In this document: one piece after another, positions 7,401-56,863 of the stretch | Layout: the number at the start of each line of letters is the position of its first letter | Position numbering within the stretch: position 1 is the first letter of the stretch | Made by a program: the position numbers and the translations under genes | Notes under the pieces: model-generated | What the model was told of the DNA's origin: nothing | The model's input: the letters and a program-made list of their open reading frames with translations, nothing else | Databases searched by the model: none | Source of the DNA: Parabacteroides sp. AD58 | GTDB taxonomy: Bacteria; Bacteroidota; Bacteroidia; Bacteroidales; Tannerellaceae | NCBI RefSeq assembly: GCF_023744375.2 | Contig: NZ_CP146284.1 | Coordinates: 3,100,001 to 3,164,000 of the forward strand | Length of the DNA: 64,000 nt | Direction: 5' to 3'

Positions 7401-7679
7401 GACTTGCACCTGGCTCAGGACATCTTCTACTTGAAAGAACGTGGAAGCAAGATCCAGGTAACATTCGATGTTGTGAACTTCACGAATATGTTGAATAAGA
7501 AATGGGGTGCAAGCTACAGCTCAGCTTACAACGTATCACCGCTGTCAGTACAGTCTATTTCAACAGCAGCCGATGGTACACGTACTCCGGCTTATACATA
7601 CAACAGCAACAATGAGGTGGCAAAAGATGATATCGCTTCTCGTTGGCATGCTCAGGTAGGTGTAAGATTGACATTCTGA
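4464..7679 (+). CDS. TonB-dependent receptor, Oar-like, with carboxypeptidase-regulatory domain
   Basis: Large outer-membrane protein of 1071 residues. It starts with a signal peptide (about residues 1-23, ending CADAQ). A carboxypeptidase-regulatory-like beta-sandwich follows (about 26-110: INGVVLDENKEPVIGATV, then GRYTIQGM). Next is a plug region (DEVVITADAL, then NAITKQGTNKL near 235-245) and a long beta-barrel. The C-terminus ends in an aromatic residue (VRLTF), as expected for outer-membrane barrels. The layout is that of Oar-like proteins of Bacteroidetes, which import or export an unknown ligand with TonB energy. No SusD partner is next to it. It stands alone between its own promoter and a terminator, so the substrate cannot be inferred. 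Confidence 0.92.
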   Translation: MNYSTKLMLTALAATTVICADAQVTTSAINGVVLDENKEPVIGATVTAVHEPSGTLYGTVTNMDGRYTIQGMRTGGPYKVEISYVGYKKSTFTGLQLELGNTLDLNANLQVSSEELDEVVITADALAKTGAAQNFSTSKIVNTPTVDRNVYDVIKNMPMAMTSKNGGITFAGSNNRYNSFQIDGTVSNDVFGLSASGTNGGQTGANPISMDAIQEIQVVVAPFDVRQSGFTGGGINAITKQGTNKLQATAYSYFTNENMYGKYSALRDNEKYPMSEQYTRTFSGTLGGAIIKDKLFYFVSAEAKKEAYPSSVYPGYTDNYMTPEVAQQIADKYQQYTGFKESYSARDVENKSFGLLARIDWNINKDHKLAVRYQHNNSFDDNYSSGTTSYKFNNSGYRMNNKTNSIVAELNSRFSDQISNEFRASATYVRDHRDVAYQGPTVQISNVPGADQTTMIQANIGTEYSSGANYLNQDIYTFEDNVSWYKGNHTFTFGTHNEIYRMQNLFIQAANGSWYFNSLNDFLNDTPYQFSYKYTDPDLTGGDLKYAPIMKAGQFGFYAQDKWDITRDFNLTYGIRFDIPLTFNDPTTNPNFNKYAEENGLNARVGEMPGAKVMVSPRVGFRWYADEDRKTLLRGGVGLFTGRVPFVWLCNAYNNTGMELKGTTINQVEDADGNITQYAPSLGQYADNPLGALQSMSGSAAKPDIVTVDKDFKYPQVFRANLALEQMLPGDVKFTLEGIYSKTMNNVFFENLALSNNGEKVYAIPGVEASAAPFYSNAKSDYYSIINLKNTNKGYTYAVSGLLEKHFNFGLDLSASYTFGHAKAVNDGTSSVAYSNWKYNYSRDTNSEDELGFSKFDIPHRLMIQLSYTTPRYLNGWMATTVALIYNAFSGSRYSLTMNESSDFNGDGYRGNSLLYIPTESELQQMNFVDYVSKGKVIMTAEESRQAFGEWIANDSYAKNHRGQYAERNSNLSDWEHQVDLHLAQDIFYLKERGSKIQVTFDVVNFTNMLNKKWGASYSSAYNVSPLSVQSISTAADGTRTPAYTYNSNNEVAKDDIASRWHAQVGVRLTF

Positions 7680-7700
7680 TAAAGAGTCCGCTCAATAAGA

Positions 7701-7747
7701 AACGGCTGGTTTCCCCCATGAAGGAAGTCAGCCGTTATTTTTTTATC
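7701..7747 (+). terminator. Terminator after the Oar-like receptor
   Basis: The stem AACGGCTG (7701-7708) pairs with CAGCCGTT (7729-7736), with an inner TTCC/GGAA pairing, followed by ATTTTTTT. Confidence 0.85.
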
Positions 7748-7782
7748 CTTCACAAACGTCCATAAAGTTCAAGTGATTGTCC

Positions 7783-7858
7783 GTTCTTTCTGGCTTGACC
7801 CAGAAAGAACCAAAGAGTTCAAGATTGTATTCGTTCTTTTCTCTTGAAAGAAAAGAAC
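7783..7858. repeat. Two GTTCTTT hairpins (repeat family)
   Basis: Two perfect hairpins stand close together. The first has arms GTTCTTTCTGG (7783-7793) and CCAGAAAGAAC (7800-7810), with loop CTTGAC. The second has arms GTTCTTTTCT (7833-7842) and AGAAAAGAAC (7849-7858), with loop CTTGAA. Members of the same family occur at 8322-8347, 8371-8396 and 21110-21135, some with the loop in the opposite orientation. Confidence 0.8.
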
Positions 7859-8001
7859 CAAAAGTTCAAGGCTGCGTCTGCTGAGCTACTCCGTCACTTC
7901 GTTACGCTGTGCGCGCCGCAAACTCGCTTCGCTCAAACAGCGACGCTCCGGCCGCTCCACTTCGTTCCTTCGCTTAACGCTCACCAGAACGAGGCCCCAA
8001 A
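7859..8001. repeat. Dispersed intergenic repeat module, inverted copy at 20968-21109
   Basis: About 140 bp beginning AAAGTTCAAGGCTG and containing CTCGCTTCGCTCAAACAGC. It recurs on the opposite strand at 20968-21109 with few changes, each time attached to a GTTCTTT hairpin. A shorter related version (GAGCCGAAGGCGAGTTT) lies at 8238-8256. Open frames inside it do not look like protein genes. Confidence 0.75.
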
Positions 8002-8720
8002 AATTGAAAATTGATAATTGAGAACTTCTTAAATTGAAAATTAATGATGAGGATGACTGTAGAGGCGTAGCGCTGCTGCGCCTCAAAACGGCATTGTGAA
8101 ATCGAATGGCAATCAATGCAAGAACGAATAATATTATTATTTTTTTCGGCCATTTGTCCATTCTCAATTGTACATTGTTTCGGCCTAACGGAGGAGGCGT
8201 AAAGCGGTCGACCAAGCGAAGCGTTAAAAAATCTCGGCTGTTTGAGCCGAAGGCGAGTTTTCCGAGATTTTAGCGTAGCGACCGAGACCGTAGCCTCCGT
8301 AGTGTGAGCCTTGATTTTTTGGTTCTTTTGCATCAAGGCAAAAGAACGAATACTATCTTGATATCTTTGCTTCTTTCTGGGTCAAGCCAGAAAGAACGAT
8401 AAGAACCTTCACAAGAACTAGCAGAATATGAGATAAATAACTAGTGTGTGAAGGGTATAAAAGAAAATTAGATATAGGTATAATCAATTCCAACGAAGAT
8501 CAAAAACGAATCTGACGAAGATCGATTTTAAAACTCGTTACTTTTAATAAAATATACGCCGGCTTTTCAGCAATATACGCCGGGAATTCATGAAAAGACG
8601 CCGGCTTTTGAATCATTCATAGGCATGAATGAAAACAGACTTCCCTATTCCTTATTATATATAGCAAATCTCTTTTTGGTTGAATGGAAAATAAATGGGA
8701 TTTGAAATAATGGAGTAGTA
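8002..8720. other. Gene-free repeat-rich spacer
   Basis: I see no gene here. It holds AATTGAAAATTGA-type low-complexity words (8000-8045), a GAGGCG palindrome (8062-8084) and a TAACGGAGGAGGCG/CCTCCGT pseudo-palindromic block (8186-8300). It also holds GTTCTTT hairpins at 8322-8347 and 8371-8396, a CCTTCACA/TGTGAAGG hairpin (8406-8454), and two short periodic arrays: ACGAAGATC twice at 22-nt spacing (8493, 8515) and ACGCCGG three times at 21-nt spacing (8556, 8577, 8598). Confidence 0.7.
8062..8084. repeat. GAGGCG palindrome (REP-like)
   Basis: Palindromic unit GAGGCGTAGC / GCTGCGCCTC, a member of the dispersed family also seen at 19788, 20271, 20409, 26261 and 33599. Confidence 0.75.
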
Positions 8721-8931
8721 ATAAAACGGTGGTTTCTTCCCGACTTTACCGTATTGCAAAGGTAAATCCTTTTTTGATACTAGCAAATAAACGTACTAAT
8801 TTTTTTCCAAATATATACTCTTTCTTATCAACCACATAACAATTATGGTACAAACAACCCGTTTTGGGCAACAAAGCCTTTTCTTTCCTTAATTCTGCCG
8901 CCCTGATGTTGGTTTTAAACCACCGTTTTAT
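8721..8931. promoter_or_regulatory. Candidate invertible (phase-variable) promoter upstream of DUF6383 protein 1
   Basis: A 15-bp perfect inverted repeat, ATAAAACGGTGGTTT (8721-8735) and its complement (8917-8931), encloses 181 bp. Inside is one clear consensus promoter on the minus strand: TACCTTTG (8764-8757) with TTTG (8787-8784) exactly 19 nt upstream. It points away from the surface-protein gene that starts 73 nt beyond the right repeat. No plus-strand TAnnTTTG is seen between 8736 and 9003. Inversion of the segment would point the promoter at the gene. This arrangement is known from phase-variable surface loci of Bacteroides; the OFF assignment is inference. No recombinase gene is in the window. 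Confidence 0.7.
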
Positions 8932-9003
8932 ACCGACTTGATAAAGACGAATATTACACAAGAGGATATAATTACTTATTATTAATACTAAATTAATTTA
9001 ATT

Positions 9004-12000
9004 ATGAACAAAAAGTTTTCTACTTTGATGGCTGGTTTACTGCTTAGTGGTGGTTTGTTCAACAGCGTTCTTGCTGAAAAATTACCTTATGGTGAAGTGG
9101 CCAAATCTATTGAGTCGGGAAAGTATTATTTCTTTGTGAATAAAACAAACGATTCTTATGCTTATGGTTTCAAGGAAAATGCTACTAACGACAAATTTAT
9201 TGATCAGCAGTATGCACAAATTGATGGTGATGTAACAGATTACAAAGAATTTGTTTGGAAAGTTGAGGTCGCTCCTATTGAAGTGTCAAGTGGGGTTACA
9301 ACTGCATATGGCTATAAGTTGACAAATTTAGCTACTGGGAAACAGCTATTTTTTGATGCTAATGGTACTGTAGATACAGATTATTCAGATGCTAATCCAA
9401 CTAATGTTTTAAATCAGGTAGTTTGGTTTGGAAATGCAGCTATTGAATATAGAGCAAAAGAAGATAAGGATGGTTCTGCGTATGCAGGTCCATTATATAA
9501 GAATGACGCAACATCAGGAAAAAGTGCATTAGTGATAACACAGACTGGTTTGTCACGGGCTGGTACAACAACTGTATATCCTTGGTTTTTCTACTCTGTT
9601 AATTCTTCAAATATTGATGCAACAGAATTGAATGATCTATACAACTCAACTGGATTTAATTTTGTATTAAATCAGGACAAGTGGAAAGATGTAGATAATA
9701 TCTTTGCAAAAGAAGGTGATCGCATTATGGCTGTTCAAGTTGTAGATGGTAATGTGAAATCTAGTGATGGTAAATACAGTTTCCCTGTAGGTACTTATTT
9801 TGTAGTAAATAATAAACTAGGAGCTGTTCCTCCAGCTACAAAAGGTGGGGAAATTTATGATTTCTTAATGAATTCTACATTAATTGCAGCTTCTCCTTCT
9901 GTAAATGATATCAATGATGCTGATTGGCGTAAAGCTGGTCAAGGCTTCCAGTTGATTAAGAAGGCAGGTCGTGATTTAGTAAAAGTTGGTACAAATAAAG
10001 ATCTTCAAGGAGAAGATGTATCAGTAAACAATGCATGTTTTAAAGTTACAAAAGATTTAAATGGTGACTATGCTCTTCAACTTGCAACCTTCTATTATAA
10101 CGAAAAAACTGGTGCTGAAAAACAAATTTCTGCAGCAGTTGCAATCAAAGTAACTGCTAAAGACGGTGATGATCATGGAGATTTGTATTTAACAACTGAT
10201 GCAAAAGCAGAAAATTTCATTTTTGACTTTAAGGAAGTAAATACAGTTTCTTATACAAAATTCTTGAATCAGAATGCTAAAGCAGTTTACAATATTCAGT
10301 TTGTAAATGATGATTTAGCTGGTAAATATCTGTTCACTCCGGCTTATGCACCAGATACCGCGTATGCTAAGGGTGCGAAGTTTGTTGATCCGACTGCTCC
10401 AGAAGCTCAATATATCATTACTGATGTAGATTTGGATGATAACAACATCACTTTCGAAAACCGTGCTAATAAGGCTTATAGCTTTACTGCTAAATTCTAC
10501 CAGGAAGCAGATGGAGTTTATTCAATGGCTATTAAGAATGGAGCAAGTCAGAAAACATTTACTGACTTGAATGTTGATAAAGATGGTAATATTGTTGTTG
10601 CATCAACTGAGGATTTACATACGCAGTGGGTTAAACTAACTCCTGTTACAGTTGATATGTTTGCTGGTGCATGGGATGTTGATAACTTGACAGAGGTTAC
10701 TATGTCATTTGCTCGTGATGATAAATCAACTTCTAACCGTTTGTTTGTTATGGTTAAAGATAATCAGAAGGGTATTACTGTAAGTGATAATCAATCGGAT
10801 GCAATCCAGTTCCAGCTTGTTAAGAATAAGGAAGTGAACTACATCACAAATGAATATGCTTATCTTTCTGCCGATAATAAAGTGAAGAAATATGCTGATG
10901 GCGATACGATCGCTTATTACACATATAAATTCCAAGCTTACAGAGACGGTGAAGCAGTTGAGAAATATTTGGCATGGAATAGTACAGGCAGTAAATATGG
11001 CTTAGTAGATGATGTCAACACTGCAAATAATTTCATCATTAAAGATAACGCAGCAGACGGTTCTGTGACAATTCTTTATGGTACTTCAACTGTTGGTGAT
11101 TATGATTATACTAAGAATATTGTAGTTGATGAATGGAATGTAGCTTCAAATAGTATTGAAAATTTTGATGGTCATAATATCATTGAAGCTTCTTTGGCTG
11201 AAATCTCAAACGCTAAGGATGTTAAGACATTCTTGAAAGTAGAATCTCCTGAAGTATCATTAGATCCGAAGACTACTTATGCTACATTGACAACTGAATT
11301 AGACAACTATGTGGCTATCAAGAACGATCGTGACGCAATCATTACTGGTAAAGAGACAACATTACGTTTGTTTGCAACAGATACAGACCGTCAGATTCCT
11401 TCATTCTTGATCTCTACTGGTTGGAATGGTGAAACAGGTGAACGTCAGTTCTTGTTCAACTCTGTTGACTCTGTAGATTACAATGTTGCAACAGGTGAAT
11501 TCAATAAAGAATATGCTTTGAACGGTGATTATGATCTGAATAAAGCAATCTTCCGTGTAGGTAAATTGAATGCTGATCATGATACAATTGTTACAACAAT
11601 TAAGGGTAAGGAAACAGCTGTAGCAACTGTTGCTGATCAAAATAAGAATGTACAGGCTGGTTTGAATCGTTATAAATTCCAGATTGTAGAAGATTTGGAT
11701 AATGAAGGTTACTACTTAGTACGTCAGGGTGGTTACTACTTGTTCAATATCAATGAATACTTGGTATTTGCGAATAGCGATCAGTATAACCGTACAAATG
11801 CATTGCGCGTAAAAGTAACTAACGTAGAAGCTCCGACAGCCAACGAAACAATCGCTGCTGGTAACGTAGTAGTAGCTGGTACAAACGGTGCAGTAGTAGT
11901 TAAGGGTGCTGAAGGCAAGAACGTAATCGTAAGCACAATCTTAGGTAAGGTAGTTGCTAACGAAGTATTGACTTCAGACAACGCTCAGATCACAGCTCCT

Positions 12001-12057
12001 GCAGGTGTAGTAGTTGTATCAGTTGACGGCGAAAGCTTCAAAGTGGTTGTTAAATAA
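9004..12057 (+). CDS. DUF6383 domain-containing secreted protein (paralog 1)
   Basis: Predicted exported protein of 1017 residues with unknown function. The signal peptide MNKKFSTLMAGLLLSGG... ends near residue 25. The long middle is rich in beta-type sequence with many DGDY/YAYG/FLN-like turns. It is similar along its length to the paralog at 56864 (for example YGYKLTN, LNDLYNSTGFNF, SPSVNDIND). The last 75 residues form the DUF6383 module, ANETIAAGNVVVAG ... LGKVVANEV ... APAGVVVVSVDG ... VVVK. That module resembles type IX sorting tails: a GK-V turn, a P-A-G-V-strand and a basic last residue. Secretion by T9SS is inference. The ATG at 9004 gives the same N-terminus as both paralogs. Expression is probably set by the invertible promoter upstream. 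Confidence 0.85.
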   Translation: MNKKFSTLMAGLLLSGGLFNSVLAEKLPYGEVAKSIESGKYYFFVNKTNDSYAYGFKENATNDKFIDQQYAQIDGDVTDYKEFVWKVEVAPIEVSSGVTTAYGYKLTNLATGKQLFFDANGTVDTDYSDANPTNVLNQVVWFGNAAIEYRAKEDKDGSAYAGPLYKNDATSGKSALVITQTGLSRAGTTTVYPWFFYSVNSSNIDATELNDLYNSTGFNFVLNQDKWKDVDNIFAKEGDRIMAVQVVDGNVKSSDGKYSFPVGTYFVVNNKLGAVPPATKGGEIYDFLMNSTLIAASPSVNDINDADWRKAGQGFQLIKKAGRDLVKVGTNKDLQGEDVSVNNACFKVTKDLNGDYALQLATFYYNEKTGAEKQISAAVAIKVTAKDGDDHGDLYLTTDAKAENFIFDFKEVNTVSYTKFLNQNAKAVYNIQFVNDDLAGKYLFTPAYAPDTAYAKGAKFVDPTAPEAQYIITDVDLDDNNITFENRANKAYSFTAKFYQEADGVYSMAIKNGASQKTFTDLNVDKDGNIVVASTEDLHTQWVKLTPVTVDMFAGAWDVDNLTEVTMSFARDDKSTSNRLFVMVKDNQKGITVSDNQSDAIQFQLVKNKEVNYITNEYAYLSADNKVKKYADGDTIAYYTYKFQAYRDGEAVEKYLAWNSTGSKYGLVDDVNTANNFIIKDNAADGSVTILYGTSTVGDYDYTKNIVVDEWNVASNSIENFDGHNIIEASLAEISNAKDVKTFLKVESPEVSLDPKTTYATLTTELDNYVAIKNDRDAIITGKETTLRLFATDTDRQIPSFLISTGWNGETGERQFLFNSVDSVDYNVATGEFNKEYALNGDYDLNKAIFRVGKLNADHDTIVTTIKGKETAVATVADQNKNVQAGLNRYKFQIVEDLDNEGYYLVRQGGYYLFNINEYLVFANSDQYNRTNALRVKVTNVEAPTANETIAAGNVVVAGTNGAVVVKGAEGKNVIVSTILGKVVANEVLTSDNAQITAPAGVVVVSVDGESFKVVVK

Positions 12058-12076
12058 TTAAGTTATGACTAACAAC

Positions 12077-12103
12077 ATATCAGGAGTCTCAGACTCCTGA
12101 TAT
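12077..12103 (+). terminator. Perfect 27-nt palindrome after DUF6383 protein 1
   Basis: ATATCAGGAGTCT (12077-12089), one unpaired C, then its complement (12091-12103). No long T-run follows, so it may be a partial terminator or an mRNA-stabilising end. Confidence 0.55.
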
Positions 12104-12126
12104 TTACACGAATATATTACAATTTG

Positions 12127-12186
12127 CACGCACATGAATCTTTTTTAAGATACTTGTAACGAGTAACCCGCGAGGGCGAAAGCGTG
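12127..12186 (+). ncRNA. 3' structured RNA unit (locus 1, unit 1)
   Basis: The outer stem CACGC (12127-12131) pairs with GCGTG (12182-12186). Inside are a second stem, ATCTT/AAGAT (12138-12151), then AGTA, a hairpin CCC-GCGA-GGG and CGAAAG. AGUA opposite GAA around a short GNRA-capped stem is the signature of a bulged-G (loop E, sarcin-ricin) motif. The same plan recurs at 26346, 26421, 26503, 60007 and 60091. Confidence 0.6.
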
Positions 12187-12236
12187 TTTTTACATTATTA
12201 AATTAATATGATAATAGTGTAATAAAAAGTTCTATG

Positions 12237-12272
12237 ACCTTCCAAATCCGAGAGGACAAGGAAGGTTTTTTG
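12237..12272 (+). terminator. Terminator closing the DUF6383-1 3' region
   Basis: ACCTTCC (12237-12243) pairs with GGAAGGT (12260-12266), followed by TTTTTT. Confidence 0.8.
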
Positions 12273-12306
12273 TTTTTATTCCTCTCCGAAATCGAAGAAT
12301 TTCTTC

Positions 12307-12314
12307 TAATTTTG
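12307..12314 (+). promoter_or_regulatory. -7 promoter element for aroB
   Basis: TAATTTTG matches TAnnTTTG and lies 25 nt before the aroB ATG, implying a very short leader. Confidence 0.55.
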
Positions 12315-12339
12315 TTTCCGAAAATAAAATCAATGGATT

Positions 12340-13401
12340 ATGGCTGAACAGAAAGTAGTGATTTGTCAGGATCTGAAAGCCGAGCTACAGGCTTTTCTGG
12401 CAGGTCTGGATTATGATAAGTTGTTTGTATTGACCGATACGCATACGGTGGAGCAGTGCTATCCTTTGGTAAAAGATATTCCTTTGCTGCAGGATGTTCC
12501 GGTTATAACGGTTGAAGCCGGAGATACACATAAGAATTTAGAATCATTGTCGTCTATCTGGATGCGGCTGTCGAATGAAGGCGCGACTCGTCATTCGGTA
12601 TTGTTGAATTTGGGTGGAGGCATGGTTACGGATATGGGCGGTTTCGCCGGTGCTACTTTCAAGCGGGGCATTCGGACGATCAATGTACCGACAACATTGA
12701 TGGCTTCTGTCGATGCCGCGGTTGGCGGTAAAACCGGTATTAACTTCAACGGATTGAAGAATGAGATCGGTTCGTTCTATCCGCCTTTATGTGTCTTTAT
12801 CGACTGTGAATTTCTCCGCACGTTAGATCGTGCCAATATTCTTTCCGGTTATGCCGAGATGATCAAGCATGCACTGATCAGTTCGATGGACGTCTATTTG
12901 CCCGTCATGCTGTATGACATTGATACGATGAATTATTCCTATCTGAATCAGCTGGTGGCACAGTCGGTTGCCGTCAAAGAAGATATTGTGGCAAAGGATC
13001 CGAAAGAGAAAGGTATCCGAAAAGCCTTGAATTTCGGTCATACGATTGGTCATGCGTACGAAAGTCTGTCTTTCCAGCAAAACAAACCGTTGTTGCACGG
13101 ACATGCAGTAGCAGCCGGTTTAGTCAGCGAATTATATTTATCACATAAAGTATGTGATTTCCCGAAAGAGAAACTGAGTCAGGTCATCTGCTACCTGAAA
13201 ACGTATTATCCGGCCTTTTTCTTCACTTGCAAAGACTACGACCGCCTGTATGAATTGATGACACATGACAAGAAGAACGAAGGCGGCATCATCAACTTTA
13301 CTTTGTTAGGACAAATAGGAGATGTGCGTATCAACCAGCACGTTGGAAAAGATCTGATCTTGGAGGCAATGGATTTTTATCGGGAAAGTTTTGGAATTTA
13401 G
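12340..13401 (+). CDS. aroB: 3-dehydroquinate synthase
   Basis: Second enzyme of the shikimate pathway. It converts DAHP to 3-dehydroquinate with NAD and a divalent metal in the cytoplasm. It has 353 residues, close to the usual length. Family hallmarks are visible: GGGMVTDMGGFAG for NAD binding, the NVPTTLMASVDAAVGGKTG signature followed by KNEIGSFYPP, then metal-binding histidines in FGHTIGHAYE and LLHGHAVAAG. It is read toward the tRNA-Pro gene, which has its own promoter inside the last codons of aroB. Confidence 0.98.
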   Translation: MAEQKVVICQDLKAELQAFLAGLDYDKLFVLTDTHTVEQCYPLVKDIPLLQDVPVITVEAGDTHKNLESLSSIWMRLSNEGATRHSVLLNLGGGMVTDMGGFAGATFKRGIRTINVPTTLMASVDAAVGGKTGINFNGLKNEIGSFYPPLCVFIDCEFLRTLDRANILSGYAEMIKHALISSMDVYLPVMLYDIDTMNYSYLNQLVAQSVAVKEDIVAKDPKEKGIRKALNFGHTIGHAYESLSFQQNKPLLHGHAVAAGLVSELYLSHKVCDFPKEKLSQVICYLKTYYPAFFFTCKDYDRLYELMTHDKKNEGGIINFTLLGQIGDVRINQHVGKDLILEAMDFYRESFGI

Positions 13402-13567: not shown

Positions 13568-15109
13568 CTATCTGTTTAGTAAAGATTTTCCTTTCTCCGT
13601 GGTATAATATTTCTGCAACCGGCTGTTAGGTTTGTCAGGAACAGTCATTGCTAGTAATCCTTCTGCAATCAAAGGGTTTATATATTTATTCCTAAATTTA
13701 GTCCGATTACTAAAGTGTAGCAAAGTAATAATTTCTATTAGTGACTTTTCAGATATACAAGCTTCAAGAATTGTTTGTATTTCTCTCTGACTTAGTGTCA
13801 ACTTTGTGCCGACTTGGTCCTGACTTGGTCCCGACTTGGTCCCGACTTGGTCCCGACTTGTTGGTATATCTTCTGTAAATTCAAACTCTTTAGGATCACG
13901 ATAGGTAATGGAAAAGATAAACTCTTCTCCACTATGAATTTCTATCTCAGCGTTTTCAAAGTATAACGGAGCATATTTCCGAATATTTTTCTGTCCAGAA
14001 CCCAGCTCTTCAGCCCATTTCATTTCACGGAATACCTTCGTAATTAGCGGATTCTTTGTACGGGTACGCCAGTCATTTATATTTATATCCCCTGTTTGGA
14101 AAGGTTTTGTCCAATTCTCCGTTATTACCCGGTCACGGAATATGAGAAATTTATTAGTATATGAACTGATATACTCACGGTGCAAAAGTGTATTCGATAT
14201 TACTTCTCTGAATATCATTACCCGCAAATCCAAACGGTCTATACCATTATCCGCTAAACGGAATTTATCTGGCATATTGCGCTGCACAAAATTAAGCAAA
14301 CGGATATATGACTGAATCAGATTGACGCATATCATATCCCGATCATTGTAACGAATATCAGGGTCAGTCGGAAGTGGATGTAAGAAACGTTCGTAAGACA
14401 TGCTACGGTAAATGGCATCTGTACGATGCCACGGACAACAATTCAGAATAGTCTGTTCTTTACCAAATAAAAGAATGGCTGCTAATTTATATCCTTCTTT
14501 GTTTGTTTCCCGTTGTTTACCCCAAAACAGACTTTTTAGGAATTCTTCATTAGTCATGCTCAGCCACGGATGATTAGAGTTATAGATGGAAATGTGGCTG
14601 CGCATAATCTTGAGCGATTCTTCGTCCATATCATTTATAGTTACATCGGGAAATACTTCGTTCTCTGAAGATTCCTTTTCTTTTCGCATGAATATATTCT
14701 TAACTAAATAAGTCTGCTTTGACACATCATTGTCAGCATCACCCCAACGGTCGTAAAAACGGTTCTTATACCTATGTACTTGTTCGCTCTCAGGCACATT
14801 TATATATATGATCAACTTTCCGTCTATCTCAATTACTTCCGGATTGATTGGCATTGGTGGCAAAAACTGTTCTGGATTATTTAATGTATTAATAATACTT
14901 TTGGTCATATCAATGGCGCATTTGGGATTTATTCCAATAATTGCACCATCATCATTCACACCTAAGAAAATATATCCACCTTCTGCATTTAAAAATGAAC
15001 AGATCGTTTCATATACGGAAGCTGAAACTTGATCCGTACATTTCTTAAATTCGACTTGTTTATTCTCTCCAAGAGAAAGCATTTCCCTGATTTTATCTAT
15101 TGATAGCAT
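13568..15109 (-). CDS. AlbA_2-type putative DNA-binding/ATP-binding regulator with 11-nt coding repeat
   Basis: Protein of 513 residues with three parts. An N-terminal AlbA_2 (Schlafen-like) domain covers about residues 10-120 (QVEFKKC, then NAEGGYIFLGVND). A central part carries the GHKL-like ATPase piece common in this family (LREVISNTLLHREY-like around 310). A C-terminal winged helix follows (SQREIQTILE ... NKYINPLIAEGLL). Such proteins are loosely linked to regulation or phage defence, and no partner gene is next to it. Residues about 415-433 (SRDQVGTKSG...) are encoded by four and a half tandem copies of an 11-nt unit, so gain or loss of one copy would shift the frame and remove the winged helix. 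The present copy number keeps the frame open. Confidence 0.85.
   Translation of the reverse strand: MLSIDKIREMLSLGENKQVEFKKCTDQVSASVYETICSFLNAEGGYIFLGVNDDGAIIGINPKCAIDMTKSIINTLNNPEQFLPPMPINPEVIEIDGKLIIYINVPESEQVHRYKNRFYDRWGDADNDVSKQTYLVKNIFMRKEKESSENEVFPDVTINDMDEESLKIMRSHISIYNSNHPWLSMTNEEFLKSLFWGKQRETNKEGYKLAAILLFGKEQTILNCCPWHRTDAIYRSMSYERFLHPLPTDPDIRYNDRDMICVNLIQSYIRLLNFVQRNMPDKFRLADNGIDRLDLRVMIFREVISNTLLHREYISSYTNKFLIFRDRVITENWTKPFQTGDININDWRTRTKNPLITKVFREMKWAEELGSGQKNIRKYAPLYFENAEIEIHSGEEFIFSITYRDPKEFEFTEDIPTSRDQVGTKSGPSQDQVGTKLTLSQREIQTILEACISEKSLIEIITLLHFSNRTKFRNKYINPLIAEGLLAMTVPDKPNSRLQKYYTTEKGKSLLNR
13811..13865 (-). repeat. 11-nt tandem repeat inside the AlbA_2 gene
   Basis: Units GACTTGGTCCT, then GACTTGGTCCC three times, then a partial GACTTG (plus strand), starting at 13811, 13822, 13833, 13844 and 13855. 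The period of 11 is not a multiple of three. Confidence 0.9.
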
Positions 15110-20908: not shown

Positions 20909-21410
20909 AATCAATTGAAAATGGAGAGTTGAAAATCGTCAATTATCAATTTCCATTGTCAATTGGATTGGTCTCGTTCTGGTGAGCGTTAAGCGTAGGA
21001 ACGAAGTGGAGCGATCGGAGCGTTGCTGTCTGAGCCAAAGGCGAGTTTGCGACGCGCACAGCGTAACGAAGTGACGGAGTAGCTCAGCAGACACAGCCTT
21101 GAACTTTTGGTTCTTTTCTTTCAAGAGAAAAGAACGATAGACTTCACATCCTTCACAGGAAATAGCTGAATATGAAAGAAGTAAGTGCGTGTGTGAAGGG
21201 TATAAAAGCAAATCGGATATGGGGTATATTATATAATAAGGTAAGAAGGGCTACTGTAATAAACACAGGCATGGATGGATGAAAAGATGTTTATGTTTTA
21301 TCAAACGGTATTGGCTTTTTATCATGTACTTAAAATAAAGGATTTCGTGCTATAAATCCATTTGTTTTGTCCTTTAATCGCCTGATTTGGAAAAATAATA
21401 CATGTTTTTT
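20909..21410. other. Gene-free spacer with inverted repeat module
   Basis: No gene is seen. It holds TCAATTGAAAATGG-type words (20910-20965), the reverse copy of the 7859-8001 module (20968-21109) with its GTTCTTT hairpin (21110-21135), and a CCTTCACA/TGTGAAGG hairpin (21150-21199). From about 21322 the sequence is homologous to 56354 onward, upstream of the other leader RNA. Confidence 0.7.
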
Positions 21411-21441
21411 CTTGTTGATTCAGAAAACCTCCTTATCTTTG
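21411..21441 (+). promoter_or_regulatory. Promoter of leader RNA copy 1
   Basis: CTTG (21411-21414) and TATCTTTG (21434-21441), spacer 19, conserved at 56444-56474. Confidence 0.75.
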
Positions 21442-21446
21442 CAGTG

Positions 21447-21728
21447 ATTCCGTAGCGGACAGCGGTTCGCAAAGTACGGTTTCATACATATTTAATGTAA
21501 GCATTTTACGAAGATTATTCCTTCATTGAAAATCTGGAAAATTTTTAACATCACGGAATAATGGACAGTAAATGCTTGCGCTGACTACGTATATAGGAAA
21601 AGTCTGCCATTTTAGTTGGGTAGATTGTATTATATCGTATAAGCGCGGGCTATTGTTCTGTTATTGTGATGTGGGCGAATTTCCAGATGCCTCAATGAAA
21701 ATAATAGACAACTAGCCCGCGTTTTTTT
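21447..21728 (+). ncRNA. Conserved structured leader RNA, copy 1, upstream of DUF6383 protein 2
   Basis: A predicted transcript of about 280 nt runs from the promoter to an intrinsic terminator. Pairings shared with copy 2 are: ATTCCGT (21447-21453) with ACGGAAT (21553-21559); TAAGCATTTTAC (21498-21509) with GTAAATGCTT (21568-21577); CATTGAAAATCTGGAAA (21524-21540) with TTTCCAGAT..CAATG (21680-21697); and the terminator stem CGCGGGCTA.. (21644-21665) with its partner (21700-21721), then seven Ts. The pairings interlock, so the fold must contain pseudoknots or switch between alternatives. I do not recognise a known family. It could be an independent small RNA or a transcription-attenuating leader. 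Confidence 0.7.
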
Positions 21729-21819
21729 ATGCTCGTTCATAATGATTCGCGGGGGTTGTGGACCCTTCGTAAAATTAGTTGTTGAATTATCCTTATTATT
21801 AACAATTAATTTATTTATT

Positions 21820-24800
21820 ATGAACAAAAAGTTTTCTACTTTGATGGCTAGTTTACTTATGGCTAGCTCATTTTCTGTAGTGGCAGAAAACTTTATTCCG
21901 GAGAACGGGCATTATGAGTTCCGCCGAAGTAAAGTGCTCTCAAATGTAACTTTTGAAGATGTTAAAGCTATTGATGCTCAAAAATGGTATCAATTGAGAG
22001 CTTATGATCCTAAAACAGGAAGAGAAGGTTATTTGGTACACTCTCGTAATCAGGAGACTGGTGAAGTTTTTTTACGTCTGGTAGAGGATGTTGAAGGAGC
22101 GCAAAAGACACCGTTGTTGGCCTCTTTGTGGCAGATTGATTATGGAAATACGGATGGTTTATCTGGTGGTAAATACCGTTTTATCAATAAAGAGACAAAA
22201 GTGTCTTTGATGTATGATTATGCATTTGCTATTGATGCTGATGGGAAATCTCTTGATAAACCTCGTGCGAGCCAAATGATTGATGGATGTGTTACGCGTT
22301 GGGCTTGGTATCAAGGAAATTCACAAGATGTCAATTTTAAATTTACAGCTCCGTATGCTTATTTTAATAATAAGAAGGATTCTGTAATGATAATGAAAGC
22401 TAATGAAAAGGGCTTTATTACATCTTATAAAGATATTGATGAGCATATTTTAGCAAATGGAGTTGTTAAAGATCCTGAAGCTTTAAAGGTTAAGCCTGTA
22501 TTAGCAAATCCGATCGTATTGAATGCTTATGACTTTAATTCAATGATTGATTATAATAAAAAATCAGTGTTTGATGAAGGTAAGGCATTTGGTAGTTTTA
22601 AATTTTATACTCCTGATGGCAAATTATTCTATGATGGCAAGTGGGTTGATCCGAATGAACGTCCGTTCAAGGGGGAAGCTATGCTTGATGGAATGAATTA
22701 TAAAGCTGAAAATTCAAAATTACAAGAGGCTTTCTTCGATAAATCATATAAGGACTTAGGAGGTAAAGATCTGGGTAATTTACCGGGACAGATTTTTGTG
22801 AAATCTGAAGAGGTTTGGAAACTGAAAGGAATTAATGCTTCTTTATTATCTGCAAATGACGACTTAGAGGCTGAAGTGTTTGATCTTGAGCAAGACGTAA
22901 AATATAATGAAGGATTACTAGCTGGAGGAATAAAGTCTGGTTATGAAGAAGTTGTTAACAAACAAAATAAATTAGTTGGTGAGATTGATAATTATGATTC
23001 AAGAGTACTTGCAATAAATCCTGTCAATCGAACACTTTCTTATGAAACTCTTTACAAGAGATATAGGACATCTATTACTAATTATAACAATAATCAAAAA
23101 CCTGAATTGTCTTATAATCTTGCAAGTAAAGTTTATTCAGCATTTTCTAGTTTGTTAAATAATGGTTTTGGTTCAGGTTCTGTTAGTACTACGGGGCTAA
23201 ATTCTTTGAGAACCGATTTTGCTGCCTTGGAAAAATTAGATAATACGGATAAAAAAGTATTTGGTCAATTTTTTGAGTATAGTGGCGAAATTGAAGATTG
23301 GAAATTACTTATTTCTGAGAAGGAAGGTTCTATTAGCCAAAATAAACAAATAATTAGTGATAATGAAGATGCAATTAGAGCGTTAAATGGAGAAATAGAA
23401 TCTTTGCAAAAATCATTAAATACGAATAATTTAGCTGGAGAAAAATCCTCTTATTTATTGGATCCTACTTTCTTGCGGTTAAATTATATTGACAATAAGG
23501 ATAATAATCAGTATTTAATGGTCGATACTGCCTATTGGCAATCTGTATCAAATCCAGTAGATGGTGATCTGAAAATTGTCAATAAAGTACCTAATAGAAA
23601 AGATGACTTAGCCATTCAAGCTCGTTATTATTTCAAATTTACTTACTATCCATCACAAGATAGTTTGGTTGTAGAACCATTGAATGCTTCTGATAAATCG
23701 GAAAAAGAGGCAGAGAAAAATGTTTCTTTCAAAGATTCTTATGCTGGTAAGTATTTTGTGTATGCTAGTGATGTAAATGAAAAGGCATCTCAGGTAAGTA
23801 ATACTTGGACCTCTAAGGGAGATGAAATCGTTATTCGTTTGAAAGATTTATCAACTTCTAAATGGTGTTTGACAGCAACATCCAAAAATAAAGGTATTGG
23901 AGCTTCTCCATTGAATGCTCGTATTGCATTTGATAATCCTTATGATCATTTGGTTCGTACTACATTGGAACCAGGTTTGTATTGGATTCAATCAACGGTA
24001 AAGAATGGAAAGTATCTTGTAGCTGGCTTAGAAGGACACTATATGTATGATGTTCCTAATGCTGATCAAGATTATGGAATGATGCCTGCAACTATGTATG
24101 TAGTAGAAAAATATGGTTCTTCTTGCAGTGATCTCGTTCAGATTCGTAATCGTGAATATGGTGAAGAATGGTATACAACCTTTAAAGGACAGTTGTATGC
24201 AGCTGTTAATGCTAAAGGAGAGGAAGTTGGTAAATATACCATTAATATGAAGGATTATAGCGATGAACCAACAGATGAATTGGAGGTATCATGGTGGAAT
24301 CGTTATTATGGCGGTCTTTGGATGAAAGATACTTATAAGTTCTCTCATGTGGATAATGAGGAAGCTTTAACTAGTCAATATCATGGTTACAGATTCTTAG
24401 ATCCGGAAACATTGCGTTATACAAACTATGCAATGCGTTATAACCGCTACAACAAAGATTCTGAATATATTAATCAGGGTGAAGGAGATGTTCTGTTTGT
24501 TTCTGAAGACGAAAGTAAGTATTTTGAATTTGATACAGTATATTATCAGCCTGGATATAATAAAGAAGGAAAACGAAATTACAGGAATATTTCTGTAGAT
24601 GAATTTGGTTATGGCGCAGGTGTGATAGATGCTATTAGTGGGAAAGAACTTCCTCAATTAGTTCGTCAGGCATATACGATGAAAGTGAAGGATTTCAATT
24701 TGATTGATAACGACACTCTTTATGTAAATGTTAATGAAAAATTTGGTGAAAAGAACTATTACATGACACGAGGTATCGGTGATATTTTGGATAATGGTCT

Positions 24801-26232
24801 TGGTACTATGTCATTGTTCTACTTGAAAGCAGATCAATTCGATTCTCAGTCAGATACATGCTATGCTCTTATAAATACAGTTAAAACTTCTGATGAACTA
24901 CAACTGTGGAACGGTTATGGTCGTGTCGATGTATTGAGTACAGGACAATTAGGAGAAGCTGATTTATATAATGGCCAAGAAGATAACATTGATGCTTTTG
25001 CTTTGGAAATTTTCAACCGTCCGTTGTATCGTTCAATACCTGAAGGTAAAGTTAATTTCTATCGTACTGTAGGTGGTGTAGATCAGAAGTTGTTTGCGGA
25101 TGAATTTAATGAAACTGGAGCTCCTGCTTCAAATGTGATTGAAGGCTTTGAATACTTAGGTTTGAGCCAAGAAGCAATGAATGTTGGTGATACTTCAAAA
25201 GTATTCTTTGTAGAACCATTGCGTTTGGATAATAAACTTCGTATGCCTCAATACATGTTGGCATTGACAAAAGATACTGTTGCTGACGGTTTCTGGTGTA
25301 TCAATAATGTACATGGTTATTTTGCTGACAAAGATGCTGCTGAAGCAGAAGATGCTAGCCATTATGCATTCTATAATGGATATACAGCTGGTCGTTTCTT
25401 AGTTAATTTGACTGATTCTTTAGTTAAAAAAGGAGACGGATCACATGCTTATCATGAACCAGACTTGTTTACATATAAGGGATATGCAGTTCGTTTGGGA
25501 TTTGTTGAAGGTGTTCACATGGTAATTACGAAAGAACATGCTGCAGAAATCAATGCTGCTATCAGTGCTTATAAGAAGGAAAAAGTTGATTGGGTTAAAG
25601 AAGGTGAATTCTTCTACACATTCAAAGGTGATAATACTTTGGAATCAATGAAGGTTTATGTGAAGAGATATGATAAATCATATTTGGATCCTATTAAGTT
25701 CTTCGATCCTAAAAATACAAACCGGAATGATTATTCAATAGTTGATAGACATAATAATTGGTCATTCTCATTCCGTTTAGTTCAGGATGCAACTGAAGAA
25801 GAATCTGAAGAATTCTTGATTGAATCTAACTTGGACGGTGTGTCTGAAATTGCTTCATGGCAAGGTTCTTGGATTAAGATTTATGATAAGTGTCCTGTAA
25901 CTAATTACATCGGTGGAAACCATGGAGAGTTGTTGCTTGGTAAGGGCTTATATGCTGATAATGTAACTGATGGTACCTTATTTAAGGTTACAACAACAAC
26001 AGATTCAGCTACTGCTAACGAAGAAATCGCTACTTCAAGTGTAATCGTTGCAGGTGTTGACGGCGCTGTAGTAGTTAAGGGTGCTGAAGGTAAGAACGTA
26101 ATCGTAAGTACAATCTTAGGTAAGGTAGTAGCTAACGAAGTAGTTTCTTCAGACAATGCTCAGATTTCTGCTCCGGCTGGTATCGTAGTCGTATCAGTTG
26201 ACGGCGAAAGCTTCAAGGTAGTCGTAAAATAA
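21820..26232 (+). CDS. DUF6383 domain-containing secreted protein (paralog 2)
   Basis: Predicted exported protein of 1470 residues with unknown function. The ATG at 21820 gives MNKKFSTLMAS, the signal peptide shared with both paralogs. An upstream in-frame start at 21742 lies in the leader and is rejected. The body differs from the other two paralogs. It includes a predicted coiled-coil stretch, roughly residues 330-570 (ANDDLEAEVFDLEQDV, then NGEIESLQKSL), and many YYxW/Y-rich segments. The last 75 residues are the DUF6383 module ending VVVK, which looks like a T9SS-type sorting tail (inference). It is preceded by the structured RNA and followed by three 3' RNA units. The base composition of the body is visibly more AT-rich than that of neighbouring housekeeping genes. 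Confidence 0.85.
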   Translation: MNKKFSTLMASLLMASSFSVVAENFIPENGHYEFRRSKVLSNVTFEDVKAIDAQKWYQLRAYDPKTGREGYLVHSRNQETGEVFLRLVEDVEGAQKTPLLASLWQIDYGNTDGLSGGKYRFINKETKVSLMYDYAFAIDADGKSLDKPRASQMIDGCVTRWAWYQGNSQDVNFKFTAPYAYFNNKKDSVMIMKANEKGFITSYKDIDEHILANGVVKDPEALKVKPVLANPIVLNAYDFNSMIDYNKKSVFDEGKAFGSFKFYTPDGKLFYDGKWVDPNERPFKGEAMLDGMNYKAENSKLQEAFFDKSYKDLGGKDLGNLPGQIFVKSEEVWKLKGINASLLSANDDLEAEVFDLEQDVKYNEGLLAGGIKSGYEEVVNKQNKLVGEIDNYDSRVLAINPVNRTLSYETLYKRYRTSITNYNNNQKPELSYNLASKVYSAFSSLLNNGFGSGSVSTTGLNSLRTDFAALEKLDNTDKKVFGQFFEYSGEIEDWKLLISEKEGSISQNKQIISDNEDAIRALNGEIESLQKSLNTNNLAGEKSSYLLDPTFLRLNYIDNKDNNQYLMVDTAYWQSVSNPVDGDLKIVNKVPNRKDDLAIQARYYFKFTYYPSQDSLVVEPLNASDKSEKEAEKNVSFKDSYAGKYFVYASDVNEKASQVSNTWTSKGDEIVIRLKDLSTSKWCLTATSKNKGIGASPLNARIAFDNPYDHLVRTTLEPGLYWIQSTVKNGKYLVAGLEGHYMYDVPNADQDYGMMPATMYVVEKYGSSCSDLVQIRNREYGEEWYTTFKGQLYAAVNAKGEEVGKYTINMKDYSDEPTDELEVSWWNRYYGGLWMKDTYKFSHVDNEEALTSQYHGYRFLDPETLRYTNYAMRYNRYNKDSEYINQGEGDVLFVSEDESKYFEFDTVYYQPGYNKEGKRNYRNISVDEFGYGAGVIDAISGKELPQLVRQAYTMKVKDFNLIDNDTLYVNVNEKFGEKNYYMTRGIGDILDNGLGTMSLFYLKADQFDSQSDTCYALINTVKTSDELQLWNGYGRVDVLSTGQLGEADLYNGQEDNIDAFALEIFNRPLYRSIPEGKVNFYRTVGGVDQKLFADEFNETGAPASNVIEGFEYLGLSQEAMNVGDTSKVFFVEPLRLDNKLRMPQYMLALTKDTVADGFWCINNVHGYFADKDAAEAEDASHYAFYNGYTAGRFLVNLTDSLVKKGDGSHAYHEPDLFTYKGYAVRLGFVEGVHMVITKEHAAEINAAISAYKKEKVDWVKEGEFFYTFKGDNTLESMKVYVKRYDKSYLDPIKFFDPKNTNRNDYSIVDRHNNWSFSFRLVQDATEEESEEFLIESNLDGVSEIASWQGSWIKIYDKCPVTNYIGGNHGELLLGKGLYADNVTDGTLFKVTTTTDSATANEEIATSSVIVAGVDGAVVVKGAEGKNVIVSTILGKVVANEVVSSDNAQISAPAGIVVVSVDGESFKVVVK

Positions 26233-43110: not shown

Positions 43111-45324
43111 ATGAAGACAACGATTATTCTTTTGTGTATCCTGTCATGTTTTACGTTCGTTAGCGGATTCAGTCAAATCAGTCATGGCGGAAAACCTCTT
43201 CCTTACCTGTCGACTAAGTCTGCACCGGCAGCATTCTTCGAATCCATGCCAGCTTTCGATTTGCAGGAACAACTTCGCCTGGATTCTATGGAGTACAACG
43301 GATTGAGAAACTCGAATCGCTTCGCCTATAAATTCATGACTGATTTCACACCTGATAATGCCGGAATGACTTATACGCTGGCTGATGGAACTCGAGTATG
43401 GCGATTAGGCATCCGGTCTGAAGGCGCTGTTTCCATTAATCTTCTGTTTACAGAATATGAACTTCCTGAAGGCGCCAGTCTGTTTGTCTATGATCCGGAG
43501 CAAAAGCAAATAAAAGGCAGCTTTACCAGCCAAAATAATTCCGAGCGTCATATACTGCCTGTCTCTCCAGTCTACGGTGATGAAATCATTGTTGAATACC
43601 AGGAACCGGCTCATAGTCCATTTCATGGAAGATTGAGAATAGGAGAAGTCAATCATGCTTACCGCTCGTTAGCAAGAGCTACTGAACCAGCCGGTGAACC
43701 TAGCAGCTACAGTTGTATTCTTCCTCTTTCCTGTTCGCTGCCTGACGGTGATCCTTATCAGAAAGTAGGGCGAAGTGTGGTAGAACTTATTGTTGATGGA
43801 ACCTATTATTGTACCGGTTCGCTGATCAATAATCTCCAACACGACGGAAAACCTTATTTGCTGACGGCCTCACATTGCCTGAATGAGGATTTTACTATAA
43901 AGAATCCGGATTACGAAGAGATAGCCGGGAAAATCATTGCCTTCTTCAACTACAACAGTCCGACCTGCGAATCACCCATGCGCGGAACGGAAGAAATGTC
44001 GATGGCATCTGCCTATTACCGGGCTGTTAATGAAAATACAGACATGGCTTTATTGGAACTGACAGAAATACCGCCGGTTTATTATCGCCCGTATTATGCC
44101 GGCTGGAATGCTTCTGAAAGCCCTTCCGCTCCTTTTGTCTGTATCCAGCATCCGGGCGGAGCAACGAAGCGTTTCAGTCTGGCCGATCAGATTGCATTAG
44201 ACAATTTCAGTGACAGCAGTCTGAAGCTTGCCTCGATGAGTTTCTGGCATGTTGCTGAATGGACACAGGGTTGTACAGCCGGCGGCTCGTCTGGCTCGCC
44301 GTTGTTCGACAGCAATTATCAGGTGATTGGTGCCCTGACTGGCGGAAATTCGTATTGCTATTCCCCGTACAATGATTATTTCTATTCGCTTTATTATTCC
44401 TGGGAAAATGTGGCAGAAAAGGAACAACAGCTGAAATACTGGTTGGCTCCGAATCAAACGGACCGGCTTTGTGACGGATTGGATCCGTATGCCAGTGCGC
44501 CTGCCTTGCGTTTGAGTCATGTATTCGAGATTGGAAAGTATGATCAGATTGAGACCCGCCAGACATCCGATTCGAAATATGTATTCGGTCTGCACGATGA
44601 TGCGTGTGAATATGCCGAGAAATATACGAATCCGGGCAGAGTTGTCGTGTATGGCTGTTATCTGGTCACTCCCGCTTTGTCGGGAAGAACGGGGCTTGAT
44701 GTCGATATCTGCCTGTATGCCGGTAAGGAAAAGCCGGAAACATTACTGGCTTCACAGAAATTCAATCCGGTTTATCCTTATATGGAGAATGGAAATAGGG
44801 GAGAAGCCGGTAAATCGTTGGCTCGTTCCCAGGAGAACTTCGTTGTCTGGGATACGCCCGTTGAGGTAGAAGGAAACTTCTTTATCGGGTATCGTATCAA
44901 CAACACGGTAGATTTCTGTACTTATGCCGTTAAGGAAGGAGAAATAACCCAAAATACAGCGTGGGTCAAGCAAGGAGAGAATTGGAAAGAAGTATCTGCC
45001 GTTTCGGATATCGGTTTCAGTACGGCCTTGTTTCTTGATCCGGTCGTTAGCTATCAGTCGGATGAAACAGCCAACGAGCCGCTTGCTGTACAGAAAAACA
45101 TATTGGTCAGTTGTGTGCGTAGCGAGAAGAGTATTCATTTGATTCTTCCGCAGAATCAACCGGAGGCTACGTATGTGCTGGTTGATTCGAGCGGTAGAAT
45201 AATAGACCGGCAGATTATTCGTGACTCACAAACCACCTGGCGTTATCCGAATCTGCCGGTGGGCATGTATATTCTTTCTATCCAGCAGGGACGTCAGAAA
45301 TATACCCGTAAAATTGTTTTCTAA
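43111..45324 (+). CDS. Trypsin-like serine protease (lysyl endopeptidase type) with T9SS sorting tail
   Basis: 737 residues. There is a signal peptide (about 1-20) and a pro-region. The serine protease core has the triad H255 (LTASHCL), D311 (NTDMALLEL) and S394 (GGSSGSPLF). The pattern resembles Achromobacter-type lysyl endopeptidases. A middle domain of unknown fold follows. The C-terminus is a type A T9SS sorting domain (YVLVDSSGRII, NLPVGMYILSIQQG, ending KYTRKIVF). The protein is therefore predicted to cross the outer membrane by type IX secretion. This is the clearest sign in the window that the organism has T9SS. Confidence 0.9.
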   Translation: MKTTIILLCILSCFTFVSGFSQISHGGKPLPYLSTKSAPAAFFESMPAFDLQEQLRLDSMEYNGLRNSNRFAYKFMTDFTPDNAGMTYTLADGTRVWRLGIRSEGAVSINLLFTEYELPEGASLFVYDPEQKQIKGSFTSQNNSERHILPVSPVYGDEIIVEYQEPAHSPFHGRLRIGEVNHAYRSLARATEPAGEPSSYSCILPLSCSLPDGDPYQKVGRSVVELIVDGTYYCTGSLINNLQHDGKPYLLTASHCLNEDFTIKNPDYEEIAGKIIAFFNYNSPTCESPMRGTEEMSMASAYYRAVNENTDMALLELTEIPPVYYRPYYAGWNASESPSAPFVCIQHPGGATKRFSLADQIALDNFSDSSLKLASMSFWHVAEWTQGCTAGGSSGSPLFDSNYQVIGALTGGNSYCYSPYNDYFYSLYYSWENVAEKEQQLKYWLAPNQTDRLCDGLDPYASAPALRLSHVFEIGKYDQIETRQTSDSKYVFGLHDDACEYAEKYTNPGRVVVYGCYLVTPALSGRTGLDVDICLYAGKEKPETLLASQKFNPVYPYMENGNRGEAGKSLARSQENFVVWDTPVEVEGNFFIGYRINNTVDFCTYAVKEGEITQNTAWVKQGENWKEVSAVSDIGFSTALFLDPVVSYQSDETANEPLAVQKNILVSCVRSEKSIHLILPQNQPEATYVLVDSSGRIIDRQIIRDSQTTWRYPNLPVGMYILSIQQGRQKYTRKIVF

Positions 45325-50070: not shown

Positions 50071-50077
50071 GTTTGTA

Positions 50078-53230: not shown

Positions 53231-53246
53231 GATTCGCTTCTCCCGA

Positions 53247-54314: not shown

Positions 54315-54339
54315 AAATAATACCTCTTTTAGTTTGTTG

Positions 54340-54347
54340 CAAATGTA
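54340..54347 (-). promoter_or_regulatory. -7 promoter element of the efflux operon
   Basis: TACATTTG on the minus strand matches TAnnTTTG, 26 nt before the adaptor start. No good -33 box is seen, consistent with activator dependence. Confidence 0.5.
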
Positions 54348-54472
54348 CCGTAAGCCCGAGATATGAGAGGAAGAAAATATGAACAATGATTGTGCATATT
54401 TTCCGATACAATTTGCATTTCGGAGAAAATGGCTTTATCTTCGCAAAGACAACTTAAATTCTCCGATGCTTT

Positions 54473-56443: not shown

Positions 56444-56474
56444 CTTGTTGATTCAGAAAACCTCTTTATCTTTG
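56444..56474 (+). promoter_or_regulatory. Promoter of leader RNA copy 2
   Basis: CTTG (56444-56447) and TATCTTTG (56467-56474), spacer 19, the same as at 21411-21441. Confidence 0.75.
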
Positions 56475-56479
56475 CAGTG

Positions 56480-56755: not shown

Positions 56756-56863
56756 ATGTCCTTACATAAACGATATAACCAAAGCCGGGTTTGTTCAGAG
56801 CTTCGTAAAATTAGTTGTTGGAAAAGTCTATTAATCTATTTATTAACAATTAATTTTATTATT

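Follow-up and report, generated by a model that had tools for sequence, protein, structure and literature searches.

The window analysed here, a stretch of 64,000 nucleotides from Parabacteroides sp. AD58 (NZ_CP146284.1, positions 3,100,001 to 3,164,000), contains at 9004-12057 a gene for a large predicted surface protein ending in a DUF6383 domain and, upstream of it, a 211-bp stretch (8721-8931) bounded by inverted repeats that encloses a promoter. The features of the locus, in window coordinates, are:

8721-8735, plus strand: left inverted-repeat arm ATAAAACGGTGGTTT, holding the core AAACGGTGGTTT, which has one mismatch against AAACGNNCGTTT
8736-8916, no strand: inner segment of 181 bp, proposed to invert
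8757-8764, minus strand: -7 box TACCTTTG, directed away from the DUF6383 gene as assembled
8784-8787, minus strand: -33 box TTTG, 19 nt before the -7 box
8808-8815, minus strand: second -7-like sequence TATATTTG, lacking a full -33/-7 match and present in P. faecalis too
8865-8895, plus strand: predicted position of the promoter after an in-silico flip, which would put the -7 box some 117 bases before the start codon
8917-8931, minus strand: right inverted-repeat arm AAACCACCGTTTTAT, the exact reverse complement of the left arm
8977-9033, plus strand: leader and first codons (MNKKFSTLMA), the portion found most broadly in the genus
9004-12057, plus strand: predicted surface protein of 1017 aa, beginning MNKKFSTLMAG (signal-peptide-like by eye)
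11833-12051, plus strand: DUF6383 C-terminal domain, residues 944-1016, 85.3 bits against a cut-off of 23.7

An earlier note on this DNA had described a 15-bp perfect inverted repeat with arms 181 bp apart, and this is exact to the base at 8721-8735 and 8917-8931; over a looser arm of 22 nt, complementarity is 86%. Perfect inverted repeats of at least 15 bp with arms 60-400 bp apart occur twice in the window (the 8721/8931 pair and 20278/20408), against a mean of 0.05 in 60 shuffled windows, three of which held any such repeat. Because approximately 5% of window-sized shuffles hold one, the repeat by itself suggests rather than establishes a switch, and it is therefore the comparison with relatives that carries the case. 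Bacteroidales promoters take the form TTTG / TAnnTTTG (-33/-7). Within the ~330 bases upstream of the 9004 gene, the full match TTTG-N18..20-TAnnTTTG is found once, on the minus strand, which bears out the note's single consensus promoter directed away from the gene.

The segment together with its leader (8700-9033) was searched in 38 Parabacteroides genomes, the best ~19 candidates per genome being scored, and matched in 34 of the 38, with up to 20 matches per genome among the matches listed. Eighty regions combined with further loci yielded 98 distinct leader sites, four of them in the window, which constitute a sample of the matches listed; from 118 BLAST rows on 121 loci, one row ending too early, two with fewer than 250 upstream bases and 17 duplicates had been removed. 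Three of the sites kept (window 48011, L111 1575 and L152 18674; E 8e-5 to 6e-4) are weak and probably due to chance, and counts over the 98 are non-independent because many sites are mutual orthologues. Inverted repeats scoring at least 12 at mirrored positions are present at 63 of the 98 sites, compared with 3 of 490 shuffles drawn from the last 400 upstream bases, so that the architecture read by the earlier note, an invertible promoter in the OFF orientation ahead of a DUF6383 surface protein, recurs at the leader sites of relatives. The -7 box TAnnTTTG lies reversed at -225 to -275 in 65 sites and forward at -100 to -140 in 22; no site has both, and 11, including all three weak ones, have neither. 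Since the full -33/-7 consensus TTTG-N18..20-TAnnTTTG is present in just 15 of the 98, direction in most relatives is read from the -7 box together with how the segment as a whole is oriented. The predicted position of the flipped -7 box in the window falls within the range occupied by the forward copies of relatives, -103 to -138. With 55 of the 63 repeat-bearing sites in the OFF state and four in the ON state, ON copies are scarce; three further sites carry an extra forward -7-like match and one lacks a -7 box.

At 18 of the 98 sites, in 17 genomes (L113, L114, L118, L119, L123, L125, L126, L129, L130, L132-L137, L150, L159 and L202), a forward -7 box at -103 to -138 stands without a mirrored repeat scoring at least 12. 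Among these, L137 has an AT-rich 14-nt pair in a wider repeat scan, and the P. faecalis site L150 has a promoter segment that resembles that of the window in inverted sense (78% over 79 bases). Within the sampled copies this suggests a default-ON member alongside many mostly-OFF switches. The window switch is a member of a family spread through the genus; the majority of the switches sampled are assembled in the OFF state, and often one copy is forward without a clear repeat. As a separate observation, L127 1529-2141 (G023) holds two divergent leader-bearing genes whose spacer is bounded by 44-nt inverted repeats 420 bp apart; a two-gene toggle was considered for this locus and rejected, no convincing promoter having been found inside its spacer.

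The inner segments of the 63 repeat-bearing sites were aligned with one another in both senses (all 1953 pairs), and 862 pairs reached the threshold score of 60, the other 1091 being too dissimilar to judge. Forty-five of the 862 align better inverted, 44 of them pairing an ON with an OFF copy and one an ON copy with a copy scored as 'both', while among the 817 pairs that align better in the same sense there is no ON-OFF pair. At one and the same locus, L221 (G013, OFF) and L190 (G038, ON) have inner segments that are identical at 125 of 130 bases when one is inverted, with no meaningful alignment in the same sense, between a left flank identical at 235 of 249 positions and a stretch from the start codon onward identical at 214 of 266. 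The inner segment of the window likewise matches the ON copy L117 (G027) in inverted sense, at 107 of 146 bases. Both orientations are thus found family-wide, and at the window locus OFF alone (the window and P. faecalis). Together with the same-locus inversion between two genomes, the occurrence of both orientations in relatives upholds the earlier reading of an invertible promoter.

We consider it very probable that the 211-bp stretch is an Mpi-type phase-variable promoter switch for the large DUF6383 surface protein. In the mechanism that we propose, a serine invertase of the Mpi family would pair both inverted repeats and flip the 181-bp segment between them; the present assembly, with the promoter directed away from the gene, would represent the OFF state, and after the flip the -7 box, ~117 bases before the start codon, would drive expression of the surface protein from a predicted transcription start near 8902, most likely an S-layer-type glycoprotein exported via the type 9 secretion system.

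The same locus in a sister species allows a closer look at how far this proposal extends to the window copy. The aroB products of the window and of P. faecalis AGMB00274 (L001) share 95% identity, and the orthologous segment in P. faecalis has the same orientation (OFF), with 144 of 149 aligned inner bases identical and an alignment score of 268 in the same sense against 20 inverted. The likeness to the window is lost over roughly the final 35 bases ahead of the right arm, and the right repeat of P. faecalis is one base short between its half-sites, which may lock the P. faecalis switch in the OFF state; from this one-base shortfall it follows that such a site can decay. The window might by the same token be a locked relic, once invertible and no longer flipping in this lineage, its gene silent or expressed only upon recombination into a different site, and the shared orientation, the shortened P. 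faecalis repeat and a window core that is one mismatch off the consensus all point in that direction. We nevertheless regard this as unlikely: the arms of the window are still perfectly complementary over 15 bp, a better arm with one mismatch against AAACGNNCGTTT is found at 29 of the 63 repeat-bearing sites, and, judged by eye in the P. faecalis alignment, the inner segment has for most of its length changed less than the sequence immediately left of the repeat. Flipping of the window copy itself is probable from the sequence comparison; the one orthologue found, that of P. faecalis, is OFF too.

Conservation with P. faecalis takes in the leader and the first codons and goes no further. The first ten residues of the downstream proteins (1017 aa in the window, 1436 aa in P. 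faecalis) are identical, and BLASTP returns one significant match between them, over the last 73 residues (DUF6383, 93% identity); likeness between window 9004-12057 and L001 5409-9719 is confined to the first residues and the DUF6383 domain. The middle of the protein looks to have been exchanged while the switch and both ends were kept. Since in this closely related pair of loci the middle of the protein is wholly different and the switch, signal peptide and C-terminal domain are retained, the order of surface-variation events is testable. A protein with a Schlafen AlbA_2 / Fic-like C-terminal domain (13568-15109, minus strand) adjoins tRNA-Pro in the window and is missing from L001, where its flanking stretches adjoin.

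In 57 of the 63 repeat-bearing sites the core of the better arm lies within zero or one mismatch of AAACGNNCGTTT, compared with three to six mismatches in shuffles; only left arms were shuffled, and the observed value is that of the better arm of each pair. The window core AAACGGTGGTTT has, in both arms, one mismatch in the 10 fixed positions of AAACGNNCGTTT, and the deviation lies in one half-site. A repeat pattern one base longer was rejected as noise, since it matched 71 times forward and 56 times in reverse while the reversed control gave 55 and 77. Repeats acted on by Mpi in B. fragilis are given as ARACGTTCGTN in excerpts of PMC8375218, and the window core differs from the consensus stated there at more positions than from AAACGNNCGTTT. 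The arms of the window hold a 12-bp near-palindromic core with a 2-bp centre that overlaps the Mpi sites.

Genes of the resolvase family are present in all 12 genomes tried, and in each of these a protein homologous to that of G005 occurs, with 57-100% identity. Three of the proteins were scored against the Mpi family NF009949 (cut-off 272), and the proteins of P. faecalis, G018 and G005 reach 326, 335 and 342 bits, respectively; the sister species, whose homologue is 57% identical to that of G005, therefore carries an Mpi-family gene. An Mpi homologue (E 1e-20 or better) is found in 34 of the 38 genomes, and the four genomes without one are the same four that lack a segment and leader match, a coincidence expected by chance 1 in 73,815 times in a hand computation that ignores kinship and assembly quality. 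One genome, G022, has the leader, yet just weak Mpi matches (28%, or 48% over half the length).

A tyrosine recombinase might instead flip the segment, given that the capsule promoters of P. distasonis are flanked by GCTACTYRGNRAGTAGC (PMC12118408, excerpts) and that a tyrosine-type gene is placed near them in passages of PMC8400631. We find this quite improbable, both from the overlap of the window core with Mpi sites and from G018, which combines at least four leader copies among the matches listed with, in a survey of resolvase-family genes, a single PF00239 match, of the Mpi family. The repeat type of PMC12118408, as excerpted, was not found at the window arms, which read ATAAAACGGTGGTTT. 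The repeat core is of the Mpi type, which refines the reading of the earlier note, and an Mpi-family enzyme is the likely agent; the repeat is unlike that reported for P. distasonis capsule loci.

We give little credence to the alternative that, with the segment oriented as it is now, some other promoter drives transcription of the gene and the segment is of little consequence. Other members of the family do have fixed promoters, and a generic sigma-70 scan places E. coli-type boxes at 8953-8982; however, that scan was rejected, as its 20 sites in 7600-12400 compare with 15.7 (sd 3.1) for shuffled sequence, and no TAnnTTTG faces the DUF6383 gene within the 330 bases upstream. A repeat unrelated to recombination (an operator, an RNA stem or chance) is hardly credible, despite the ~5% of shuffled windows that hold such a repeat, in view of the mirrored positions and both orientations across the family, the inverted pairs speaking strongly against it.

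The 1017-aa protein that the proposed Mpi-type switch would control is putatively secreted, on the strength of its leader sequence and of DUF6383, which one paper treats as a putative type 9 secretion (T9SS) targeting domain (PMC9722745, excerpts). Counting weak matches down to a limit of E 0.001, DUF6383 is matched 9 times in P. faecalis, 14 in G005, which holds copies of the leader as well, 38 in G009, 6 in G018 and 11 in T. forsythia. Two adjacent frames of T. forsythia (1178 and 1369 residues; DUF6383 at 102.8 and 99.9 bits) fit TfsA and TfsB by size and adjacency alone; the C-terminal regions of TfsA and TfsB are said in passages of PMC4030854 to resemble B. distasonis S-layer glycoproteins. 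Homologues of the window protein number 163 among the best 7995 candidates, and a search of the genome contigs for relatives of the whole 1017-aa protein gave 14 pattern matches and no true relative. In the AlphaFold model (53 sequences, mean pLDDT 79.9, pTM 0.61) the protein is nearly all beta, and the top Foldseek matches are fascin chains at TM-scores of at most 0.25 over whole chains, with single interleukin-1 domains scoring up to 0.63 on their own length. Fascin and the other proteins matched are beta-trefoils, and the model possibly depicts tandem beta-trefoils. NCBIfam models gave one meaningless weak match on four surface proteins, and a profile search of solved structures gave one match, at E 0.046, which was not used. 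A different protein of the window, trypsin-like and 737 aa long (43111-45324), has a sub-threshold Por_Secre_tail match and is possibly a type 9 secretion substrate; farther on, at 48784-54386 (minus strand), lies an efflux operon of three genes for an OEP outer-membrane protein, an AcrB-type pump and an HlyD-type adaptor.

Two further DUF6383 genes in the window are each preceded instead by a fixed promoter and a leader RNA of ~380-390 nt:

21412-21819, plus strand: region ahead of the second DUF6383 gene, separate from the switch, with a fixed promoter (TTG-N19-TATCTTTG) and a structured leader RNA of ~380 nt
21820-26232, plus strand: second DUF6383 gene, its start inferred from the common MNKKFST leader
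56473-56863, plus strand: second window copy of the structured leader RNA (~390 nt), of the third DUF6383 gene
56864-59914, plus strand: third DUF6383 gene (84.6 bits), with a predicted start

Intergenic repeats are also found upstream of DUF6383 genes (window 7782-8021, 8307-8482 and 20939-21228): a 199-bp unit at 7831-8021 has an inverted copy at 20939-21137 (90%), and a 92-bp unit at 7782-7873 has one at 8307-8398 (88%).

Copies of the leader RNA lie at 21442-21819 and 56473-56863 of the window and in L290-L300 and L318-L357. The first folds with a z of -8.1 relative to shuffles, none of 100 being as good. A genus search that included the leader end matched in 34 of the 38 genomes, many of the matches covering the common 3' end alone. 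When 123 genomes of the family were searched, 15 contained the core of the RNA (G018 and G037 weakly), and all 15 are among the 38 of the genus. Fifty-one leader RNAs were extracted and 38 aligned, leaving out two duplicates, one with wrong coordinates and ten to keep the set at a moderate size; eight further rows had no recognised start codon, of which six are long same-sense matches and two are short secondary matches on the opposite strand (L325 and L332). A 35-pair structure is formed in 94.4% of the cells of this alignment, with 203 both-side changes compared with 66 after column shuffling and no more than 57 with the structure slid along, figures that favour the structure in that it was derived from the same alignment used for scoring; covariation is strong in two variable helices. 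An alternative 21-pair hairpin followed by a T run, hand-drawn on the window sequence, draws on the same GCGCGGGC strand. Its pairs, too, form in 94.4% of cells, and its both-side changes number 20, compared with 5.8 in shuffles and at most 7 when slid; six of the 38 copies have it complete, and 37 have no fewer than 16 of its pairs. The RNA further carries an invariant strand, GCUUGCGC. Because one strand has two exclusive pairings, one of which is an intrinsic terminator, the layout resembles that of an attenuator, and the leader RNA may be described as attenuator-like on its predicted pairing. A cwpV-like invertible terminator at 21434-21819 was considered and rejected, the orientation being the same in all 38 aligned leaders; extraction required a downstream start codon, but the long matches of the genus search also run in the same sense into the start codon. 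Searched against Rfam, the window gave no gathering-score match except two tRNAs, a lax threshold adding one sub-threshold rRNA match on the other strand, and neither this RNA library nor the literature search gave a description of the leader RNA.

Taken together, these elements lead us to a tentative proposal, which we rate as a serious possibility somewhat short of probable: in Parabacteroides, one family of surface-coat genes may be governed by two unrelated switches, the inversion promoter and a new class of long leader RNA. With a fixed-ON member added, the whole would amount to one system of expression choice, lineages differing in the switch they use. In the RNA switch, the 5' arm of the terminator would pair either with the upstream invariant strand, allowing read-through, or with the downstream arm, causing a stop. 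The leader RNA offers a concrete experimental target.

Fletcher et al. (2007, PNAS) reportedly described phase-variable S-layer glycoproteins (Dgp) of Parabacteroides distasonis controlled by promoter inversion. Excerpts of later papers describe an inversion mechanism for a P. distasonis S-layer glycoprotein (PMC8400631), count nine such glycoproteins (PMC11647740) and name DgpA and DgpC (PMC2943079). Promoter inversion of a P. distasonis S-layer glycoprotein is thus already published, and the window switch probably belongs with such phase-variable S-layer-type proteins; a literature search judged by titles and abstracts found no account of the switch in the present species. The comparison suggests that promoter inversion ahead of DUF6383 genes, as described for P. 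distasonis, is a genus-wide system with a common leader and repeat type and probably a common recombinase, and the finding ties DUF6383 to S-layer biology. Set beside the Dgp proteins by descriptions, in excerpted sources, the window locus shares with them the genus, large surface proteins and, as proposed here, control by DNA inversion; it differs in the species, and in that the window protein is, outside its ends, unrelated to the protein at the same locus in P. faecalis.

Other known systems of this kind are the capsule promoters that Mpi controls in Bacteroides fragilis (PMC4747536) and the CPS promoters resembling them in B. intestinalis (PMC8375218), as excerpted there. The segments of the latter are of similarly short length (183-186 bp, compared with 181 bp here), and the window core overlaps the ARACGTTCGT of the B. 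fragilis sites, with a recombinase in the sister species that is likened to Mpi via the NCBIfam model alone. Unlike these capsule promoters, the window switch fronts a single surface-protein gene rather than a capsule operon, and its core is one position off. The capsule promoters of P. distasonis, as excerpted in PMC12118408, are likewise invertible promoters for surface structures in the same genus, but differ in the GCTACTYRGNRAGTAGC repeat, in a segment of 314-345 bp and in the tyrosine-type recombinase given in passages of PMC8400631. Finally, the T. forsythia frames, named TfsA and TfsB by size and adjacency, share the C-terminal DUF6383 domain with the window protein, whereas tfsA and tfsB are, according to the excerpted text of PMC4030854, co-transcribed from one promoter.
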